Positions 15,473-33,790 of a DNA stretch of 44,221 nt are shown piece by piece; the stretch's first letter is position 1, and each line of letters opens with the position of its first letter. Origin of the DNA: Bacillota bacterium (GTDB lineage Bacteria > Bacillota > Halanaerobiia > B1SED10-174); contig SKTZ01000081.1 in NCBI GenBank assembly GCA_007122335.1, positions 1-44,221 on the forward strand, in the 5' to 3' direction. The position numbers were made by a program, and so were the translations under genes. The notes beneath the pieces are model-generated. The model was not told where the DNA came from. It saw only the letters and a program-made list of their open reading frames with translations, and made no database searches.

Positions 15473-17215
15473 TCAGTTTTCGTCAAGAAAGCTTTCCAGT
15501 TTCCTCTCTTTAACTTCTTTTTGGAGTTCTTCTTTAAAGCGGGAAAAATCAAACTGCCCAGCTTCACCCTTCTGCCTGTGGCGCAGGGAAACTTTTTCCG
15601 CTTCCATTTCCCGATCACCAATAGCGAGCATATAGGGAACTTTCTCTTTTTGGGCCTGCCGGATTTTATAGCCCACTTTTTCATCTCGCTCATCAACTTC
15701 AGCCCTGATCCCTTCATTTTCCAGTTCACGGCAAAGTTTGCGAGCATATTCTACGTGGTTTTCACCTATAGGAATAAATCTGGCCTGGACTGGGGCCAGC
15801 CAGGTTGGGAAAGCCCCAGCGAAATGCTCGGTTATTATCCCCAAAAACCTCTCCAGGGCACCAAAAAGTGCCCGGTGCAATAAAACTGGTCGATGCTCCT
15901 GCCCATCCCGACCAACATAAGTCAGGTCAAATCGCTGGGGTAACTGGAAATCGAGCTGAATGGTTCCCAGCTGCCAGCTTCTTCCCAGGCAATCTTCGAT
16001 GTGAAAATCGATTTTGGGACCGTAAAAGGCTCCATCTCCTTCATTGAGCTGATAGGGGAGGCCTCTTTTTTTCAGGGCGGAGGCAAGTGCTTTTTCCGCC
16101 TGGTCCCAATCTTCATCACTACCCATTGATTTTTCCGGCCTGGTGCTTAACTCCAATCGGTATTTTAAGCCAAAGGTATTGTAAATTTCCTCTGCCAGGC
16201 GAATTACCCCCAGAACCTCATCGGTAACCTGTTCGGGAAGCATGTAGATATGAGCATCATCAATATGGAACGAGCGAACTCTCAACAGCCCGTGTAAAAC
16301 CCCAGAAAGCTCATGACGGTGGACCAGCCCCAGTTCAGTAACCCGCATGGGAAATTCCCGGTAACTGTGAGGTCTGGATTTATAAATTAAAACTCCACCT
16401 GGGCAATTCATGGGACGAATTGCATAGTTGTCTTCATCAATTCTGGTAAAGTACATATTTTCCCGGTAATTATCCCAGTGTCCGGATTGATGCCACAGTT
16501 CTTCATTCAAAATCAGCGGAGTCCTTATTTCCTGGTAACCGTTGGCCCGATGTAATTCTCGCCAGTAGCGGGTCAATTCATTCCAGATTGCAACTCCTGC
16601 CGGATGCAGGAAAGGAAAGCCCGGCCCTTCTTCATGCATACTGAATAAATCGAGCTCTTTTCCAATCTTCCTGTGATCTCTTTTTTTTGCTTCTTCCAGG
16701 CGATACAGGTACTGTTTTAATTCTTTTCTATCGGGAAAAGCAGTTCCATAAATTCTCTGCAGCATTTTATTCTTTTCATCGCCCCGCCAGTAGGCTCCAG
16801 CTACACTGAGCAGCTTAAACGCTTTTAACTGGCCGGTTCTTTCCAGGTGGGGACCTCTACAAAGATCAAAAAAATCTCCCTGGCGGTAAATTGATACTTC
16901 TTCCCCGGGCTCCAGTTCTTCCAATAGTTCCAATTTATAGTTTTCGTTCTCTTTTTCCAGTAATTCTCTGGCTTCTTCTCTGGACAGTATTTCCCTTTCT
17001 AAAGGAAGGTTTTCTTTGATTATCTTTTTCATCTCTTCTTCAATGCGGCTTAAATCTTCAGGATTAATTCTTTCCTCCAGGTCAAAATCATAGTAAAAAC
17101 CATCTTCAATTGCAGGCCCGATTCCAAGTTTGACGTTGGAATAAAGTCTTTTAACAGCCTGCGCCATTACATGTGCGGCGGTATGGCGATAGCTTTCCAG
17201 ATTAATTTTATCCAT
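15473..17215 (-). CDS. thrS: Threonyl-tRNA synthetase lacking the TGS domain
   Basis: ThrRS attaches threonine to tRNA-Thr. The ATG at 17215 gives 580 residues. The protein begins directly in the editing domain (SYRHTAAHVMAQAVKRLY, with the HxxxH editing motif), continues with DLCRGPHL and SVAGAYWRGD, then the catalytic core (MNCPGGVLIYKS zinc cysteine, RVTELGLVHRHELSGVLHGLLRVRSF) and the C-terminal anticodon-binding domain. The usual N-terminal TGS domain of about 60 residues is absent. The 79 extra codons upstream in the frame overlap the T-box leader and are not protein. GGAGGAAGAGG precedes the ATG. Expression is controlled by the T-box. Confidence 0.96.
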   Translation of the reverse strand: MDKINLESYRHTAAHVMAQAVKRLYSNVKLGIGPAIEDGFYYDFDLEERINPEDLSRIEEEMKKIIKENLPLEREILSREEARELLEKENENYKLELLEELEPGEEVSIYRQGDFFDLCRGPHLERTGQLKAFKLLSVAGAYWRGDEKNKMLQRIYGTAFPDRKELKQYLYRLEEAKKRDHRKIGKELDLFSMHEEGPGFPFLHPAGVAIWNELTRYWRELHRANGYQEIRTPLILNEELWHQSGHWDNYRENMYFTRIDEDNYAIRPMNCPGGVLIYKSRPHSYREFPMRVTELGLVHRHELSGVLHGLLRVRSFHIDDAHIYMLPEQVTDEVLGVIRLAEEIYNTFGLKYRLELSTRPEKSMGSDEDWDQAEKALASALKKRGLPYQLNEGDGAFYGPKIDFHIEDCLGRSWQLGTIQLDFQLPQRFDLTYVGRDGQEHRPVLLHRALFGALERFLGIITEHFAGAFPTWLAPVQARFIPIGENHVEYARKLCRELENEGIRAEVDERDEKVGYKIRQAQKEKVPYMLAIGDREMEAEKVSLRHRQKGEAGQFDFSRFKEELQKEVKERKLESFLDEN

Positions 17216-17485
17216 TTCCTCTTCCTCCTTAATTTTAATAATAAAAAAAACCCTCGTCTCAAATGTAGAGACGAAGGTTTCGCGGTCCCACTCTACTTGG
17301 CTCGGGTTAAGCCCTCTCTCCAGTAATAACGGCCTGCGCCGGGCCTGCTTAATCGGGAAAACCCTTTCAGCAACCAGCTCTCGGGTGGTATTCAGTGCGC
17401 TTTCCTGAGGAAAACTTCCAGCCCTGGTTTTCCCTCTCTGCCAGTAAGGCACACCTACTCTTCCCGGTCATAGCTTTTTTGCTTT
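17216..17485 (-). promoter_or_regulatory. T-box leader (threonine) of thrS
   Basis: The roughly 270-nt leader contains the T-box core TGGGACCGCG (rc of 17281-17290, within a GAGTGGGACCGCG match). An intrinsic terminator follows at 17251-17277: a 9-10 bp stem with one mismatch, then T8 at 17250-17243. Upstream, Stem I features are visible: an AGAGA bulge region and GAAT-ACC-A, with ACC at 17389-17387 as the likely threonine specifier codon. Uncharged tRNA-Thr should pair with the specifier and the UGGN bulge and favour the antiterminator. The UGGN position reads G, which would need a wobble or C discriminator. Confidence 0.93.
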
Positions 17486-18132: not shown

Positions 18133-18162
18133 ATTATACCAGTATTTTTTCCAGCCTGTCAA
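18133..18162 (-). promoter_or_regulatory. Promoter of lemA
   Basis: TTGACA (18162-18157), an 18-bp spacer and TATAAT (18138-18133). As at the yceD promoter, the TGA inside the -35 box is the stop codon of the upstream gene (cysteine desulfurase, 18161-18159). Confidence 0.88.
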
Positions 18163-19313
18163 TTATTTTCCAATACCAGCCTTTTAAGAATATCAATTGC
18201 AGACCAAATCTCTTCTTCGGTGTTAAAAAAACCGGGGCTGAAACGCAAAGTTCCACCGGGAAAGGTTTGCAGGGCCCTGTGGCCTGCTGGACAACAGTGC
18301 AACCCTGACCTAACAAGAATTCCCTCCTCACCCAGTTGATGCGCCAAAACCCCGGTATCCTGCCCTTCCACAGTAATGGAAACAGTATGAACACTATCTT
18401 CCCCGGAAACTCCTATAACTTTTACACCTGTAATCTGGGCAAAACCTTTTATTAATTCCCTGGCCAGGATTTTTTTCCTGGCCTCAACCTGTTCTATTCC
18501 TTTCTCCTGGATATACTCAATTCCCTTTCTCAATCCTATTATACCGGGAGTATTGGGAGTTCCGCTTTCCATTTTGTCAGGTAGAAAATCAGGTTGGAAT
18601 TCACTGTCAGAAATACTGCCTGTTCCCCCCTGGATAATGGGTTTAATGTTTCTTGCAGCCCTTTCACTGAGCAGCATCCCTCCAGTTCCAGGAGGACCCA
18701 GTAACCCTTTATGCCCGGTAAAAGCAGTTACATCAATTCCTGCCTCCGGGGCGTCAATAGGAATGCTTCCCGCAGTCTGAGCTGTATCAACAACAAAAAA
18801 AGGATTACGTTCTTTTAAAACCGCTCCTACCCTGGTCACGGGGATAATCTGTCCAGTAATATTGGAAGCGTGGTTAACAACAACAACCCTGGTCTGGGGT
18901 GTGAGCAAATTTAAGAATTTATCTTCAGAAAAATCGGTCAGGGAAAAGGGGTAAACTGAAAGGGAAATCAATCCCTTTTTTTCCATGGTTTTTAAAGGTC
19001 GCCAGACTGCGTTATGCTCCAGATCAGATGTAATTACATGGTCACCTTTTCTTAAAAGTCCATAGAGAGCAAAATTTAAAGCCTGGGTTACATTCTGACT
19101 GAAAACAACATTTTCAGGTGAATCAGATCCAAAAAAACCCGCCACCGTTTCCCGGGTTTTCAATATTTCTCTTCCTGCTTCTAAAGAACATTCGTATCCT
19201 CCCCGTCCGGGATTGCAGCCCACTGCTTTTAGGAAATTACTCATCGCTTCAATAACAACTGGTGGTTTGGGCCAGGAAGTAGCTGCATTATCAAGGTAGA
19301 TTTTTCTGGTCAC
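18159..19313 (-). CDS. Cysteine desulfurase-like class V aminotransferase, selenium/sulfur locus
   Basis: This is a 384-residue PLP enzyme of the NifS/SufS fold. The sequence shows DLEHNAVWRP (His100), VVDTAQTAG (Asp176), the PLP lysine in FTGHKG (Lys202) and a Cys-Cys in RSGLHCCPAGH (340-341), where the desulfurase nucleophile is expected. The opening YLDNAATSWPKPP is typical of the subfamily that I recall being catalogued with selenium-utilising genomes. It would strip sulfur (or selenium) from cysteine (or selenocysteine) as a persulfide (or perselenide). Its GTG start overlaps the LysR stop (GTGA), so it is coupled to the regulator. The substrate is inferred from context. Confidence 0.88.
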   Translation of the reverse strand: MTRKIYLDNAATSWPKPPVVIEAMSNFLKAVGCNPGRGGYECSLEAGREILKTRETVAGFFGSDSPENVVFSQNVTQALNFALYGLLRKGDHVITSDLEHNAVWRPLKTMEKKGLISLSVYPFSLTDFSEDKFLNLLTPQTRVVVVNHASNITGQIIPVTRVGAVLKERNPFFVVDTAQTAGSIPIDAPEAGIDVTAFTGHKGLLGPPGTGGMLLSERAARNIKPIIQGGTGSISDSEFQPDFLPDKMESGTPNTPGIIGLRKGIEYIQEKGIEQVEARKKILARELIKGFAQITGVKVIGVSGEDSVHTVSITVEGQDTGVLAHQLGEEGILVRSGLHCCPAGHRALQTFPGGTLRFSPGFFNTEEEIWSAIDILKRLVLENN

Positions 19314-20197
19314 GTTAACTCGCTCCTTTCTTTTAAAAACAGGAAAAATTTATCAACCCAGCCGGGGAAGACCCTCCTCGGGTTGTAAACCACATAAAAA
19401 TTCCGGTATAAATCGAGGCCCTTGATGAAAAATTCCCCCAGTTGATCACCATTCTTTAAAGCTACCGAGGAAATAACACTAACTCCAAGGCCCTGACGGA
19501 CATGGTTTTTAATTCCTTCCAGGCTGTTAATTTGCAGGTAAATTTTAAATTTTTCCAGGGGAAAACCCATTGCAACCAAGCCCTCACTGAAAATTTTTCT
19601 GGTAGCAGAACCAGGTTGAGGGACGATTAAATGGCTTTCCAGTAAATCTTTAATTTCTATTTCCTTACCCTGCCAGGGATGTCCCCCCGGGATTATTCCA
19701 ACCATTTTATCCCGATAAAGCAAAAACTGGTCCAGGTCTTTGCCCAGCTCCCCTTCCCCGGTTATCCCCAGATCGCTTTGATAACTGGCAACCAGTTCCC
19801 GGGCTTTCTGGCTGTGGGTAAGGTTAATAGAAAAGGAAATACCCGGGTTTTCTTTTTTAAATTCCCCCAGCAAACCTGGTAACAAATAGGTTCCAGGAGT
19901 GGAAGAAGCCCCTATTTCTATTGTTCCTTTTGATTCAACATTAAACCGAGAAATTTTTTCCAGGCCCCTAGCTTTCATATTGATTATGTCCCGGGCAATG
20001 GGGAAAAATTCTTCCCCGGCTGGTGTTAAAACAACCTTTCTCCCTCTCCTCTCAAAAAGAGAGGACCCTACTTCCCTCTCCAGCTTTGCCATATGGGAGC
20101 TAACCGTTGGTTGAGTTAAAAAGAGGGTTTCCGCGGCCCGGGAAAAAGTCCCTTCTTTAACTACTTCAACAAAAATTTCTAATCTGTGGAAATCCAA
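19310..20197 (-). CDS. LysR family regulator of the selenium/sulfur locus
   Basis: The 295-residue LysR-type regulator has an N-terminal winged helix-turn-helix (about 2-61, containing TFSRAAETLFLTQPTVSSHMA and SLFERRGRKVVLTPAG split across two helices and the wing). A C-terminal effector domain of about 200 residues follows. The TTG start at 20197 has GGGGGAGG five bases upstream. It is divergent from yedE and overlaps the desulfurase-like gene, so it very likely controls both and itself. The sequence resembles the subgroup annotated as selenium-metabolism-associated LysR proteins (from memory). The inducer is unknown. Confidence 0.9.
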   Translation of the reverse strand: MDFHRLEIFVEVVKEGTFSRAAETLFLTQPTVSSHMAKLEREVGSSLFERRGRKVVLTPAGEEFFPIARDIINMKARGLEKISRFNVESKGTIEIGASSTPGTYLLPGLLGEFKKENPGISFSINLTHSQKARELVASYQSDLGITGEGELGKDLDQFLLYRDKMVGIIPGGHPWQGKEIEIKDLLESHLIVPQPGSATRKIFSEGLVAMGFPLEKFKIYLQINSLEGIKNHVRQGLGVSVISSVALKNGDQLGEFFIKGLDLYRNFYVVYNPRRVFPGWVDKFFLFLKERSELT

Positions 20198-20233
20198 ACC
20201 AGCCTCCCCCTTTTTTATTGCTTGTATCTATAT

Positions 20234-20261
20234 ATTATATTTATTCTATTTATATTTGCAA
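20234..20261 (-). promoter_or_regulatory. Promoter of the lysR-desulfurase unit
   Basis: TTGCAA (20261-20256), a 16-bp spacer and TATAAT (20239-20234) on the minus strand. It directly abuts the -35 of the yedE promoter, the usual arrangement for a LysR regulator acting on both strands. Confidence 0.65.
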
Positions 20262-20291
20262 TTTACTTTTTCCTCTTTTTGCCTTTATAAT
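20262..20291 (+). promoter_or_regulatory. Promoter of yedE-tusA-DUF3343
   Basis: TTTACT (20262-20267), an 18-bp spacer and TATAAT (20286-20291). The -10 is perfect and the -35 is weak, as expected for an activator-dependent promoter. The AT-rich stretch 20222-20262 is the likely LysR binding region, but I could not assign one clear T-N11-A dyad. Confidence 0.7.
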
Positions 20292-20322
20292 ATTTACAGT
20301 GGGAAAAAAAGAGGAGGTTGCA

Positions 20323-21375
20323 ATGAGCAGCAATAAACTCGTTATTATCGCAGGAATTATTGTCGGTTTGCTTGGTTCTTTTCTGGTTTTGTGGGGCAAT
20401 CCCCTGAATATGGGAATCTGTGTTGCCTGTTTTGTAAGAGATATAGCAGGAGGACTGGGGCTCCATCGAGCAACCCCGGTTCAGTATATCAGGCCAGAAG
20501 TAATTGGGTTTATTTTAGGATCCTTTATCCTCTCTATTTTTACTGGAGAATTTAAACCCCGGGGAGGTTCAGCCCCCTTAATTCGGTTCTCCCTGGGAAT
20601 TGTCATGATGATAGGGGCCCTGGCTTTTTTGGGGTGCCCCCTGCGTATGCTTTTACGCCTGGCAGCCGGGGACCTGAATGCCCTGATCGGTTTTTTTGGA
20701 TTTGCTGGGGGGATCTGGGTCGGGAGCGAGTTTTTGAAAATGGGTTTTTCCCTGGGCCGGAGTCCAGCTTTGAACAAAACCAATGGTTTTATTGTCCCCC
20801 TTATTATGGCTATTTTATTGATAATTTTTGTTATATCTCCCGGAATTTTCCTTTCCAGTACCACAGGACCGGGCTCTTTAAAAGCACCTCTATTACTGGC
20901 TCTGGGAGCAGGTTTGTTAGTGGGAACCCTTGCTCAGCGCAGCAGGCTCTGTACAGCTGGCGCCTTAAGGGATTTATTCTTAATAAAAAATCCTCATCTG
21001 TTTTATGGTATTGTTGGCATCTTTGCCGCAGCTTTGTTGGGAAATATTATCCTGGGGAATTTCTCCCTTGGTTTTTCCGATCAGCCCATAGCCCACACCG
21101 ATGCTATCTGGAATTTCCTTGGTTTGGGATTGGTTGGCTTAACTGCAGTAATGCTCGGGGGCTGTCCTCTCCGCCAGTTAATACTTGCTGGAGAAGGTAA
21201 TACCGATTCCGGGCTGGTTTTTATGGGTATGCTTGCCGGAGCGGCCCTTTCTCATAACTTTGGTCTGGCAGGCTCCCCTGCCGGTCTGGACCTGCCCGGG
21301 CAAGTAGCTGTAATTATCGGTTTTATTTTTACCCTTGCCATTGCAGGTAGTGTAATATTTTTTAATAAAAAGTAA
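20323..21375 (+). CDS. YedE/YeeE family membrane transporter, selenium-type
   Basis: The 350-residue polytopic membrane protein has about nine to ten hydrophobic segments in two YeeE/YedE repeats. Each half carries a GCPLR motif (LGCPLRMLLRLAAGD and LGGCPLRQLILAGE), plus RSRLCTAGALRD and an early CVAC pair (Cys33, Cys36). YeeE/YedE proteins take up thiosulfate or related sulfur/selenium species; the shorter fused type beside TusA and DUF3343 is the one associated with selenium. The ATG at 20323 follows GAGGAGG; the frame to 20218 adds 35 residues across the promoter and was rejected. The chemical form transported is not known. Confidence 0.88.
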   Translation: MSSNKLVIIAGIIVGLLGSFLVLWGNPLNMGICVACFVRDIAGGLGLHRATPVQYIRPEVIGFILGSFILSIFTGEFKPRGGSAPLIRFSLGIVMMIGALAFLGCPLRMLLRLAAGDLNALIGFFGFAGGIWVGSEFLKMGFSLGRSPALNKTNGFIVPLIMAILLIIFVISPGIFLSSTTGPGSLKAPLLLALGAGLLVGTLAQRSRLCTAGALRDLFLIKNPHLFYGIVGIFAAALLGNIILGNFSLGFSDQPIAHTDAIWNFLGLGLVGLTAVMLGGCPLRQLILAGEGNTDSGLVFMGMLAGAALSHNFGLAGSPAGLDLPGQVAVIIGFIFTLAIAGSVIFFNKK

Positions 21376-21390
21376 AGGAGGCCGTTAATA

Positions 21391-21621
21391 ATGAACGAAA
21401 TTACTATAGACGCCCGGGGGCTTTCCTGTCCGGAACCTGTTTTAAAAACCAGAGAACAAATTCTTAACCAAGAAGTTTCCGAATTTAAAATCCTGGTTGA
21501 TTCAGAGGTTGCCCGCGATAATATTTGCAACCAGGCCGAATTAGAAAGTTTTTCTTTTTCCATAGAAAACCAGGGTGAAGATTACCTGATTACTTTAAAA
21601 CGAAGGAAAAAAAATGGATAA
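21391..21621 (+). CDS. TusA/SirA-like sulfur (selenium) carrier protein
   Basis: The 76-residue protein has the TusA hallmark DARGLSCPEPVLKT with the active cysteine at residue 13 in the CPxP motif. TusA proteins pass persulfide sulfur between a desulfurase and acceptors; YedF, the selenium-linked form, has this domain fused to a second one. Here it stands as a single domain, and the next gene (DUF3343) is separate. Spacing is 15 bp after yedE with AAAGGAGG, and its last eight bases overlap the next gene. Inferred job: to receive sulfur or selenium from the transporter or the desulfurase-like enzyme. Confidence 0.9.
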   Translation: MNEITIDARGLSCPEPVLKTREQILNQEVSEFKILVDSEVARDNICNQAELESFSFSIENQGEDYLITLKRRKKNG

Positions 21622-21877
21622 AAATCATTTCTGTGCTATTACATTTCCCAGCACTCACCTTGCTTTGCGTTGGGAGACTCTGGCTATAAAAGAAAATTTA
21701 GAAGTAAAAATTATCCCTGTCCCCCGCCAGATCAGTTCATCCTGTGGACTTGCCGGAAAATTTTCCTGCGAAAAACTGGAACAGGTTTTAAATCTCTGTA
21801 CAGGAAAAAATATTGATTTTGAAAATATCTATCAGTTTCCTGCCGAGAAAAATGGAAAACCCCAATTAATCAAATAA
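21614..21877 (+). CDS. DUF3343 family putative Se/S carrier-like protein
   Basis: The 87-residue protein begins with an A-I-T-F-P-S-T-H-L-A-L strand-helix typical of DUF3343 and carries the conserved ISSSCGLAGKF motif with Cys44. Further cysteines stand at about 7, 52 and 62. The family has no proven biochemical function; it is found with YedE, TusA/YedF and selenium genes and is sometimes named a putative Se/S carrier. It overlaps tusA by eight bases, and a strong bidirectional terminator follows. AAGGAAAAAAAATGG gives a modest ribosome site, so translation is probably coupled to tusA. Confidence 0.85.
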   Translation: MDKNHFCAITFPSTHLALRWETLAIKENLEVKIIPVPRQISSSCGLAGKFSCEKLEQVLNLCTGKNIDFENIYQFPAEKNGKPQLIK

Positions 21878-26660: not shown

Positions 26661-28966
26661 CTATTCCAGTTTGAATTTTTCCACCATTTTCATTAAATCA
26701 TCAGCCTGTTCTTTCAGTTTTGCACCCGCCCGGGCTATTTCCTTATTACCTTTTTGATTGCTACCGGTAATTTCGTTGACTTTTTCCACGTTATTTGCAA
26801 TCTGATCGTTGGTTGCTGAATGCTCTTGCATGGCAGCGGCTACATCCCTGAATAGTTCGGACATTTTCTCATTTACCCCAACCATTTCCTCCGTGGTTGA
26901 TAATTGTTCCCGGGTTGTTGATGCTACTTCCCCGATCAGATCATTAATTTTATCCGCCGCAGCACTGACCCTCTTGCTCTGTTCGGCTTCCTCATTTACG
27001 TTTTTGGTAATGGATTGGATACCTCTAGTTGCTTCTTCCACTGTTACAAAAATCTTTTTAAAAGCTTCTCCGGTCTCCCGGACCAGGACAACTCCATTTT
27101 CAACTTCCTCCTGGCCTTTCTGGCTGGTTTTGACTGCCTGAGAAACATCACCCTGAATGCCCTTTGTTAACTGTGCAATATCTTTTGTGGCTTCCTGGGA
27201 CCGATCCGCAAGATCCCCAGTGGCTCCAGCGACTACCGCAAAACCTTTTCCGTTTTCACCTGCTCGGGCTGCTTCAATCGAAGCGTTCAAGGCGAGTAAG
27301 TTTGTTTGTTCGGCAATATCATCAATAACTTCAATAATTTCTCCAATTTTACCTGCTGAATCTCCAAGGGAATTAACCACCCTGGCCCGTTCCTGGACTG
27401 CTTTTTTCAGTTCTTCAATTCCCTGGATAACCTTTTCAACCTTTTCCTGGCCTTCTCTTGTCACGGAATAAACTTCTTCCATTTGTTTTTCTGTGGCCGG
27501 GTAACAGTAACGGATTCATTTATAGCCGCATCCATTTCCCCCAGGGATTCAGTAACCCCGCTAATTTCATCAGTAACTTTCTGAATGTTTTCCGCGACAA
27601 TCTGGAAGGTAGAATTCATATCCCGCGCACTTTTAACTTTACCCTCAGAGTAGTTAGCCTCCTCCTGAACATTTTCCGATGATTGATTCATTGATGCATT
27701 CATTTCTTCAATACTTGCCGTCAAATCCTGAATTGACTCATTCTGGCTTGTAGAATCGGAATAAAGTTGTTCGGCAGTAGTCGCAATTTTCTAAGAGGAA
27801 AAATCAATTTTAGATGAGGCTTTTTAACTTTTTCCTGGCTTTCCTGTAGTCCATGGACCATTTTAGCAAAAGCCTGGCTCATCTGTCCAATTTCATCCCT
27901 GCTTTTTATTTCAGGTTTAACCGTCAGATCACCCTTCTCGGCTTCCCCCATCTTACTTCTTATATCCAAAACCGGTTTTGTAATAGAAGTGGAAAAGAAA
28001 TAACTTGTTCCAATAATTACCATGATTCCCACGGCCATAATCAGCATAATTCCCCACCACAAGACCCGGGCTTGAGAATATATTTCATCCTGATCAACCT
28101 TAATTACAATTCCTGCAGGCATCCCACCCAGTTGCAAAACTCCCATACTCCCAAAACGTGGTTACCCCGGAAACCTTCATATTTTGCCTGGTGGATAAAA
28201 TCCATTTCTCCCTGGTTGATTGGTCAGGCCAGGATGCTAACTTCTTCAGATTCAATATTCTCCTGAAGAGCAGAGCTTCGGTCAAAGGGTTCCTGCCGGG
28301 TATTTGTAAGGACAAGTCCTTCAGAGTTAATTAAAAAAGCAGGACTGGTTTCTCCAAGACTGCCTACTCCCCCGCAGATCATTTCATCGATAACCGACCG
28401 GGGAAAGGTAATATCAACAACTCCCAGAAGGCGGTCCCTACCTATTGGAGCTGTAACCACCATTGCATTCTCCCCAATTTCTTCAGAGAAGAAAAATTCG
28501 GACCAGCCCACAGAACCACTTTAAGCTTCTGCCACAAACCTTTCTTCTTTCATTTCCAAACCAATTTCATCTTCGTTTGTACTGTAAACAATTTTTCCTT
28601 CGGAATCAGTTGCAAAAAAAGATAAATACCCGAATTCCTGTATAACAGATTCGGCAAAATTTTCAAGGACGTTTCGCCTGCTTCTCCACATTGAACTTTC
28701 CAGGTCATAACCTGCAAGCCTTAAATAGTCAAGGGTATTATTCACATCTGCGGTTCGGGAAATAAAAAGGGCATCTCGCTCTCTTTCCGTAAAAAATCCT
28801 GAACATTGGCCGTTACCTGTTCTAAAAACAAGTCATTGGCCTTCAGGACTTCTTCCCGAATATTATTTTGTGAGGATCAGTAGCTGATAAAACCCATTCC
28901 CAGCATGGGCAAAAGCCCAACGATCAAAAAAACCAGCACCAGTTTTCTTTGTAGTTTGTTAAACAT
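26661..28966 (-). pseudogene. Decayed methyl-accepting chemotaxis protein
   Basis: The remnant reads as a full MCP: signal/TM segment (MFNKLQRKLVLVFLIVGL), periplasmic sensor (Cache-like), second membrane helix (about 28040), HAMP region and a complete C-terminal signalling hairpin with the [16 protein letters not shown] tip at about 27275. Lesions on the coding strand are TGA at 28879-28877, a frameshift at the T6 run near 28791-28796, TAA at 28523-28521, TGA at 28226-28224, a frameshift near 28150, a frameshift near 27823, TAG at 27793-27791 and a frameshift near 27497. GGAGGTGG precedes the ATG at 28966. Four stops plus four shifts make a real product implausible, although the signalling half (26661-27482) is still open. 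Confidence 0.9.
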
Positions 28967-31318: not shown

Positions 31319-31801
31319 TCATTTACCCGTGACTTCCCAACCAATAACCAATCTTTTTATAGCTAGCTGCAGGGGAAGTCCCCTTCTTTCCCAGCAAGAG
31401 GCTCTGAAACGAACTTCCCAGGTTTGGGCTGGATCCAGCCCGGCAAAACTATCTGTGGAACTGTTATTCAACAAAAAAACATGTTCAGGTTTTTGCTCTT
31501 CCCCTTCCTTCTCGGATCCCTTCTGCCCTTTACCCAGAATAACCTGTAGTCCTGCAACTCCACCTGAGGTCAAAACCTCCCAATCCAGGCGAATAAAAGT
31601 AACACCAGCTTCAGGTGGAATATTATCTAAATTTTCCAGGTCCCATTTTGCCGGGTAAGACCAAACATTGGGGTGAGCAACCTGTAAAACAGCGGGTTCT
31701 GTTTCCCAGAGGGTTATAGTTCCCTGTTGAGCAGATCCCAGGGCCTGACCCCCCGTTAAAATTATTATTATTAAAAACAAGCCAGCTAATTTTTTTAACA
31801 T
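31319..31801 (-). CDS. Small secreted protein of unknown function
   Basis: This is a 160-residue protein with a clear signal peptide (a Lys-Lys followed by a hydrophobic core, AGLFLIIIILTGG, and a small-residue cleavage region near residue 25). The mature part is mostly strand-like and contains one acidic-lysine stretch (KGSEKEGEEQKPE, about 96-108). I do not recognise a family. The ATG at 31801 suits GGGAAGG better than the ATG two codons upstream. It directly follows the candidate selenoprotein gene (17 bp), whose stop is just before its ribosome site, so the two are likely expressed together. Confidence 0.65.
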   Translation of the reverse strand: MLKKLAGLFLIIIILTGGQALGSAQQGTITLWETEPAVLQVAHPNVWSYPAKWDLENLDNIPPEAGVTFIRLDWEVLTSGGVAGLQVILGKGQKGSEKEGEEQKPEHVFLLNNSSTDSFAGLDPAQTWEVRFRASCWERRGLPLQLAIKRLVIGWEVTGK

Positions 31802-31818
31802 AACCATCCTTCCCTTTT

Positions 31819-32088
31819 TTACCCCTGGATACTAACCAGTGGTTCTCCAAAAACAAAAAAGCGAAGCCTGATTTTCAAGCGGGACGCAGCATATTCTCTA
31901 ACAATAAAAAAGGTAAAATTATCTTTTTCAACTCTTGTAAATTCATCTTTTTGAGCCGGTTCACCTGCAGACACGGCAGGAAATGGGGTATAACCTCCTC
32001 AGCCCCCGTAAAAGACTTTTTTAATCGTAAAAACCCTCCCCTTCTTTTCCAGTTTTTTCTCCGCCCGGGGTGTAATTTCAATTTCCAC
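31819..32088 (-). CDS. Candidate selenoprotein, 89 codons with in-frame UGA (Sec30)
   Basis: The GTG at 32088 follows AAGGAGGAAG with six-base spacing and overlaps the ogt stop (TAGTG). The frame runs 29 codons to a TGA at 32001-31999, then 59 codons to TAA at 31821-31819. The Sec context is KKVFYGGUGGYTPFPAVSAG, and the predicted fold is strand-helix-strand, Sec loop, then two strands. The gene fills the otherwise empty 286-bp gap exactly: the next ribosome site starts right after its stop. The post-UGA P-x-V-x-x-G-x-P pattern recalls the small CC/Se-motif (seleno)protein family, but from memory only. A stem-loop fitting SECIS rules lies directly downstream of UGA. Without Sec, only a 29-residue peptide is made. 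Confidence 0.72.
31960..31983 (-). promoter_or_regulatory. Candidate bacterial SECIS element
   Basis: The stem-loop in the mRNA is a 5-bp GC-rich stem (CCUGC/GCAGG) with a 7-base loop CGUGUCU, a bulged U, then three more pairs (UUU with GAA, one G-U). The loop begins 23 nt after the UGA. It has G at its second position. Both fit the published bacterial SECIS description (16-37 nt from UGA to the apical loop, G in the first two loop bases). It lies wholly in coding sequence. Confidence 0.65.
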
Positions 32089-32561
32089 TAAAATCTTCCT
32101 CCTTCCAGATCAAGCAGTTTTCTTTTCAGGGACAACCCGCCACCAAACCCAACTAAGTCCCCGTCGCTACCGATAACCCGGTGACAGGGAACAATAATTG
32201 CGAGGGGATTTTTATTGCAGGCGCCCCCAACAGCCCGAGCTCTACCCAAACTTCCCAGTTTTTTTGCAATTTCTCCATAAGTTCGGGTCTCTCCATAGGG
32301 AATTTTAAGGAGTTCCTGCCAAACTGAACGCTGAAATTCTGTCCCTGTAAGCAGGTAAGGTATATCAAAGCTATACCTTTCCCCTTCCAGGTATTCCGAT
32401 ATCTCTCGGGCTACTTTTTTTAAAAAAGGATCCTGGTTTAAATCTATTTTTTTCATTGCCCCCTGAAGGGAGCCAGGCAGGTGCAGGGCAAACAATTTAT
32501 TTTCTTTCCAGGCTGCACCCCAGCACCCCCACTTATTTTCCAAAAAAATACCGTTTTTCAT
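32088..32561 (-). CDS. ogt: Methylated-DNA--protein-cysteine methyltransferase (Ogt-type)
   Basis: This repairs O6-alkylguanine by transfer to its own cysteine. The C-terminal domain carries FQRSVWQELLKIPYGETRTYGEIA and the acceptor-cysteine motif IVPCHRVIG. The total length of 157 residues is typical for Ogt. The ATG at 32561 overlaps the stop of the upstream Eis-like gene as TAATG, implying coupling; a TTG 12 bases earlier is an alternative. The stop TAG overlaps the GTG of the following selenoprotein candidate. N-terminal Ada-like domains are absent. Confidence 0.93.
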   Translation of the reverse strand: MKNGIFLENKWGCWGAAWKENKLFALHLPGSLQGAMKKIDLNQDPFLKKVAREISEYLEGERYSFDIPYLLTGTEFQRSVWQELLKIPYGETRTYGEIAKKLGSLGRARAVGGACNKNPLAIIVPCHRVIGSDGDLVGFGGGLSLKRKLLDLEGGRF

Positions 32562-33790
32562 TAGAAATCCCAATCCAATCTAGGTTTTGGCATTAAAAAA
32601 ACCTGGTCAAGTTCCTCTAATAGATCTTCTGATGCACAAAAATCACCGCTTAAACCCAGGCCCGTTGCAGGTAAAGCTCCCATCCACATTCTGGTAAAGG
32701 CCCCAACTGAAGCTTTTAGGGTAGGCAGGTTGTTTTGCAAACCACGTTTTATTTCCGATTCAGCCCCAATGGTCAGGTGATATTCTCCTCCTATCCCCTG
32801 CCATTCTTCTTCCGGAGGCAAAAACTTTTCAACTGGATCCATTAATTCCAGGTTAAAAGAAACTTCTCTCCCCGGCAGATGCGTATTATTTATACAGCCT
32901 TCCAAGTCCAAAATTCGCAGCTGCCAGTACGCCAGAGCCCGGTTTTTAACCTCAAACTTTCCACCTTTGGAAATCCTCGAGCTTTTCATTGGCTGTCTGA
33001 GGAAATCCTGGAGCTGCACTCCGGAAGGTTCAGCAATTCTAACCAGGTTAATCTGATCCCCCAAGTCCCGAAGCAGGCTCAATAATTCTAAAAACTGTTT
33101 ATTTTCCCTGTATACAGTCCAAAGCACGTTGTAAGGTCCGTGTTCAACATCATCAGGGCTAATCCAAAAATGATGAGTGAGTTCTCCACTATCTGGATCG
33201 CGAAAACCAAGGCCAAAACCACTGTCCTTGTATAACAGATCCGTTCTTGTAACTTCAGGGGGGTAGAGGTTAACCGAACCATGTTTTTGCAGCCTTTGCA
33301 ACCTGTTTTCGTGCATTTCCTGAAAATCTTTAGCTCCCAGCCGACAGGGAGGGCGGTTCGATCTGGGAACCTTAAGTTCCGCAGGATCAAAAGATAGGTG
33401 ATGTTCATAGGGACCGGTACCGAATCCCAGGAGATTGTAATAACCCTGTTCAAACATGCCCAGGCCGGCTATTTTTTTCCCTGCAGCAGCCTCCCTGGCC
33501 AGGGCGAGGGCGGTGACTTTTCCTGCCAGGCCCCTCTTGCGGGAAATCCTGCTGGTGGTAACTGCGGCAACTGCATGCAGTGGAAGTTGCACTCCATTGT
33601 AGTTTAAATCTCCAGAAATACTAAAAACAGAGGCTTCAGCCGCTCCATTCAGCTCTACAACCAAAATTCTGGAACTCTCCACAAAAAATTTAAAAATTTC
33701 TTTGTCTTCTTTCGGCTCCAGCCAGCCGATTTCTTCCCAGGTTCTCTTAATTTCCTGAAAATCTTTTTCAATATATCTTCTGATTTTCAT
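32561..33790 (-). CDS. Eis-like GNAT family N-acetyltransferase
   Basis: The 409-residue protein resembles the Eis (enhanced intracellular survival) family: a first GNAT domain with LHAVAAVTTSRISRKRGLAGKVT as the acetyl-CoA loop, a second GNAT-like domain, and a C-terminal sterol-carrier-like domain that begins near residue 300. Eis enzymes acetylate amines such as aminoglycosides or protein lysines. Here no resistance gene context exists, so the role could be small-molecule or protein acetylation. It follows the SDR gene by 21 bp and is coupled to ogt. Confidence 0.8.
   Translation of the reverse strand: MKIRRYIEKDFQEIKRTWEEIGWLEPKEDKEIFKFFVESSRILVVELNGAAEASVFSISGDLNYNGVQLPLHAVAAVTTSRISRKRGLAGKVTALALAREAAAGKKIAGLGMFEQGYYNLLGFGTGPYEHHLSFDPAELKVPRSNRPPCRLGAKDFQEMHENRLQRLQKHGSVNLYPPEVTRTDLLYKDSGFGLGFRDPDSGELTHHFWISPDDVEHGPYNVLWTVYRENKQFLELLSLLRDLGDQINLVRIAEPSGVQLQDFLRQPMKSSRISKGGKFEVKNRALAYWQLRILDLEGCINNTHLPGREVSFNLELMDPVEKFLPPEEEWQGIGGEYHLTIGAESEIKRGLQNNLPTLKASVGAFTRMWMGALPATGLGLSGDFCASEDLLEELDQVFLMPKPRLDWDF

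Follow-up and report, generated by a model that had tools for sequence, protein, structure and literature searches.

A UGA-containing gene of the CC/Se motif family (NF041239), very probably encoding a selenoprotein, in an apparent gap next to ogt

The window analysed here is a stretch of 44,221 nucleotides from the genome of a Bacillota bacterium, and the question raised by this locus is whether an apparently empty gap between two of its minus-strand genes holds a gene whose single in-frame UGA is read as selenocysteine (Sec). On one side of the gap lies ogt (32088 to 32573), encoding a methylated-DNA--protein-cysteine methyltransferase (TIGR00589, 111 bits, cut-off 46.4). The gene on the other side (31319 to 31807 in the ORF list) encodes a protein of 162 aa that appears to carry a signal peptide and for which no NCBIfam match was found. 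The gap measures 286 bp when the probable start of this downstream gene, the ATG at 31801, is used and 280 bp with the ATG at 31807 chosen in the ORF list. That list (table 11, at least 80 aa) omits the frame under study, in line with the claim of a sequence-only reading that standard gene callers would miss or truncate it. A conserved selenoprotein gene would thus be hidden where a standard ORF list shows an empty gap.

Translated with read-through, the frame (31819 to 32088) runs for 89 codons on the minus strand from the GTG at 32088-32086 to the TAA at 31821-31819, and its sole TGA is codon 30 (31999 to 32001). The GTG shares one base, 32088, with the TAG of ogt (TAGTG). It is preceded, within the 3' end of ogt, by the ribosome binding site AAGGAGGAAG (32095 to 32104, minus strand), whose AGGAGG lies 9 nt from the GTG; comparable ribosome sites also precede the orthologues. 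The frame with its GTG start and single TGA, the ribosome site, the overlap with ogt, and the neat fit before the downstream gene had all been described by the sequence-only reading and were confirmed from the read-through translation and the sequence. Judged from the sequence comparisons set out below, the gene is almost certainly real and its UGA recoded, and it is very likely that the fuller description, a selenoprotein gene with a recoded UGA that belongs to the CC/Se motif family, is correct as well.

The continuity of the frame had been put forward as an argument against chance. When first-order Markov sequences were matched to it in composition, about 1.4% stayed as open as this frame while containing no more than one TGA. 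Openness by itself is thus only moderately unlikely, so that this part of the argument did not stand on its own and the case must rest on comparison, which does exclude chance.

The read-through protein matches the family model NF041239, named 'CC/Se motif family (seleno)protein', with 49.4 bits (50.7 bits and E 1.4e-13 with a Met start; the curated cut-off is 40 bits), and the match covers most of the model. A six-frame search of the window's own genome with this model returned a single locus (42.4 bits) with one TGA inside, and no Pfam family matched the protein up to E 10. Members of NF041239 occur in 18 of 59 genomes of the class. Homologues aligning across the UGA, the finding by which the sequence-only reading had proposed to judge its claim, were found in 90 of the 398 genomes sampled from the phylum; most of them have one in-frame TGA, and some carry Cys instead. 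All four other genomes of the same genus that have the gene (orthologues L014, L017, L020, and L021) contain a single TGA at the same codon, and column 30 is invariant (Sec or Cys) in an alignment of 22 members. In homologues without a UGA, the position aligns with the second Cys of a CC motif (NSCCGG, SGCCGG, NGCCTV), with few divergent exceptions (e.g., L096).

The gene's surroundings are conserved too. A tblastn comparison of six neighbouring genes, this one included, found their order kept in four related genomes, which are metagenome-assembled genomes (MAGs) with the deposited name Halobacteroidaceae bacterium. The six genes encode an acetyltransferase, Ogt, the selenoprotein, the secreted protein of 162 aa, a protein of 203 aa, and a methyltransferase, with ogt directly upstream and the gene for the 162-aa protein directly downstream of the selenoprotein gene in four of four relatives.

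According to Table 1 of a 2026 review (PMC13188914), this family is predicted with high confidence, has the motif CxxU and one Sec, and was first seen in Moorella, as a hypothetical selenoprotein of Moorella thermoacetica; in the parts of the review drawn on here no function is given for it. The gene would accordingly be counted as an additional member of an already catalogued family and not as a new selenoprotein family. Many family members read CGGU, which is a CxxU motif, and several above the cut-off lack it (SGGU, YGGGU). The window protein reads YGGU and has no cysteine at all, and its genus has Y, S, A, or G at the position of the CxxU cysteine. CxxU is therefore no universal feature of NF041239 and is not decisive for membership.

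Downstream of the UGA, the transcript can form a candidate bacterial SECIS element (bSECIS; 31964 to 31980, minus strand) with a 5-bp stem (CCUGC/GCAGG) and a 7-nt loop (CGUGUCU), identified by its pairing and by covariation in relatives. The loop begins 23 nt after the UGA, and its second and third nucleotides are G and U. The element thus falls within the bSECIS rules as quoted in PMC13188914, namely a loop of 3-9 nt, a stem of 4-16 bp, a G among the first two loop nucleotides, and a distance of 16-37 nt from the UGA. It is formed by the P-A-V-S-A-G codons, starting from the seventh residue after the UGA. The pattern P-x-V-x-x-G-x-P, in which the sequence-only reading had seen a sign against chance, turned out to be a genuine motif of the family, and the same codons carry the SECIS stem-loop.

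All five pairs are formed at the same offset in 39 of 43 Sec-type loci; the remaining four (L009, L010, L016, and L026) are unpaired there, and two of these have a hairpin close to that site. Across 26 aligned sequences, both sides have changed in three of the five pairs, and 100% of the cells are paired compared with 22-41% in slid controls; the 26 sequences were taken from the 39 conforming ones, so that the 100% pairing is partly a product of selection, while the fair measures are the covariation and the count of 39 in 43 loci. The complete stem was seen in none of 13 homologues without an in-frame UGA. A pattern of this SECIS type occurs once in the 44-kb window and not at all in shuffled sequences (0 expected). 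The evidence for the element rests on covariation because its single-sequence minimum free energy (MFE) fold is not unusually stable (z -0.43). An Rfam search at a permissive threshold around the gene gave chance matches only.

A profile search of the genome found all four genes of the selenium machinery that the sequence-only reading had named as a check on its claim, each above its cut-off: selA (511.9 bits), selB (383.1 bits), selC, the tRNA-Sec gene with anticodon tca (77.1 bits), and selD (374.3 bits). selD itself has an in-frame TGA, read as SQKAGUGCKMGPEAL, from which the SelD of this genome would itself be a selenoprotein. Together, the family match, the homologues across the UGA, the covarying SECIS, and the full Sec machinery support the selenoprotein reading. 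With AAGGAGGAAG as the ribosome site, translation could begin at the GTG; at codon 30, SelB and Sec-tRNA docked on the SECIS loop would insert Sec for the UGA, and an 89-residue cytoplasmic protein would result.

A selenium-metabolism cluster (18159 to 21877) was also observed in the same window, 10 kb from the selenoprotein gene. It comprises genes for a cysteine desulfurase family protein (18159-19313, minus strand; TIGR01977, 401.6 bits, over the cut-off), a selenium-associated LysR regulator (19310-20197, minus strand; NF040786, 264 bits, over the cut-off), a YedE putative selenium transporter (20218-21375, plus strand; TIGR04112, 480.4 bits, over the cut-off), and two ORFs on the plus strand, encoding a small CPxP protein judged TusA-like by eye (21391-21621) and an 87-aa protein (21614-21877). 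Elsewhere in the window, a T-box leader (17264-17480, minus strand; Rfam RF00230, 110 bits) lies upstream of a threonyl-tRNA synthetase-like gene (15473-17452). A sequence resembling a methyl-accepting chemotaxis protein (26661-28511, minus strand) is spread over several frames (26661-27482, 27461-27724, 27721-28146, and 28224-28511), for which frameshifts, a pseudogene, or assembly errors are alternative explanations.

If the UGA were an ordinary stop within a frame that happens to be open in a non-coding gap, the modest improbability of that openness under the first-order model would pose little difficulty, and TGA is indeed the ordinary stop of 10 of the 31 genes in the window. This explanation is refuted by the comparative data, namely the match to a curated family, the orthologues that share the TGA codon, the covarying SECIS, and purifying selection after the UGA, and we regard it as extremely improbable. 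Within the genus, pN/pS lies at 0.14-0.76 after the UGA and at 0.29-0.61 before it, and on either side the third codon position is the one that changes most; purifying selection thus acts on both sides of the UGA, and the second part of the frame, which the sequence-only reading expected to be open in close relatives, has been kept open in them. None of the outcomes that this reading had named as refuting it was seen. The same data bear on the idea of a decaying gene, in which a Cys-containing ancestor was hit by a nonsense mutation and the product now ends after only 29 residues. The Cys found at the UGA position in homologues without a UGA would fit such a history. A UGA fixed at one codon throughout the genus and in dozens of genera is, however, not expected under decay, and pN/pS stays below 1 after the UGA while a paired stem is maintained 3' of it. 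Decay was therefore rejected, with hardly any probability left to it, and a functional gene with a recoded UGA is the reading followed here.

The family also includes a divergent paralogue in which two UGA codons lie in frame and which was observed in ten genomes of the phylum sample from five families and in one further genome, G452 (loci L082, L083, L084-L089, L099, L107, and L109; L114 and L083 are one gene). In every gene of this subgroup whose DNA was read, the two UGA codons lie side by side (UGAUGA) at the CC position, within the motif IHGUUNAFYAPSGLxGKPEN. A 7-bp stem with a loop starting with GG follows the UU and is fully paired in 12 of 12 loci checked (11 distinct genes), and pN/pS after the UU is 0.08-0.28. 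A CC version of this subgroup did not appear in any of the 26 genomes of that class. No adjacent UU motif is listed in the table of 119 families in PMC13188914, and the Sec-Sec subgroup is, as far as that table goes, apparently undescribed.

As for the fold, an AlphaFold2 model built from the 22-member alignment has a pLDDT of 83.7, and its best PDB matches are IscA, SufA, AQ_1857, HI1723, and DsrR, with 1x0g, 2d2a, 1nwb, and 1s98 as the best entries for the A-type fold. Both matches with E <= 0.001 are A-type proteins, as are nearly all of the top nine, with moderate TM-scores of 0.41-0.60; a sequence search of the PDB with the family profile gave nothing meaningful. Aligned by hhalign with three HesB-like selenoproteins of the class, the family reaches a probability of 79% (pairwise E 1.6e-5), and Sec falls on Sec. 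The A-type family PF01521 does not match the window protein and gives weak matches only in other NF041239 members. PF01521 proteins were not found in the window genome or in five sampled members of its family, and they are absent from most relatives, including class members without the selenoprotein gene. The three HesB-like selenoproteins (L100, L101, and L102; SIGUGGP), from three genomes of the class, were the only PF01521 matches among the 21 searched.

In light of the model, the protein may fold as an A-type (IscA/HesB) protein whose only Sec occupies the place of the first conserved Cys out of three. An intramolecular selenylsulfide cannot form because the window protein has no Cys; such Cys-free members narrow the possible chemistry. 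We tentatively propose a small dimeric redox or metal/chalcogen-handling protein in which the Sec would act by itself, whether as a nucleophile or in binding a soft metal or a cluster at the dimer interface, and in which a partner thiol or second selenol, if any, would be supplied in trans; we hold this role to be rather less than evenly probable.

Only slightly short of an even chance is given to another role for a real selenoprotein, that of a thiol/selenol redox enzyme of the CxxU type and not an A-type carrier-like protein. It draws on the many family members with CGGU and on PMC13188914, which files the family under CxxU and suggests such a role for CxxU families. On the other hand, the CxxU cysteine is replaced by Y, S, A, or G in the window's genus, and a window protein free of Cys makes a classical CxxU redox couple within one molecule less plausible. 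That the protein is a true Fe-S cluster or iron carrier replacing IscA/SufA in this lineage seems unlikely. The predicted IscA-type fold would suit a carrier, as would the failure to find PF01521 proteins in the genome and the five sampled family members, but the protein lacks the CxC ligands that A-type carriers have at the C terminus, and PF01521 proteins are likewise absent from most relatives, class members without the gene among them, so that there is no one-for-one replacement. The most specific form of the proposed A-type reading, a Cys-free A-type-fold protein that handles a chalcogen, metal, or cluster with one Sec as its only chalcogen residue, is likewise improbable on present estimates; if true, it would describe an IscA-like protein working with selenium alone in a lineage without a detectable PF01521 protein.

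Compared with IscA, SufA, and ErpA, the window protein shares the predicted fold and has its Sec at the position of the first cysteine (GC-x-G), but of the three conserved Cys (C-Xn-C-x-C) only this first position is kept, as Sec; the C-terminal CxC ligands are missing, and sequence similarity is at background level. Relative to the HesB-like selenoproteins (TIGR01911 and NF038090), it would be a distant homologue with only the predicted A-type fold and the Sec position in common, although it scores below the cut-offs of all HesB/IscA models and lacks the UxGP motif. With the NF041239 family it shares the Sec position, the core GGU-x-G...P-x-V-x-x-G-x-P, and the SECIS with a CGUG loop, whereas its genus lacks the CxxU cysteine that Table 1 of PMC13188914 gives for the family as well as the usual form of the C-terminal GFxxFKxL block. 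The comparison thus adds the window's genus to a known, functionally uncharacterised family, and it ties this family to a predicted IscA/HesB fold and to a well-supported SECIS.
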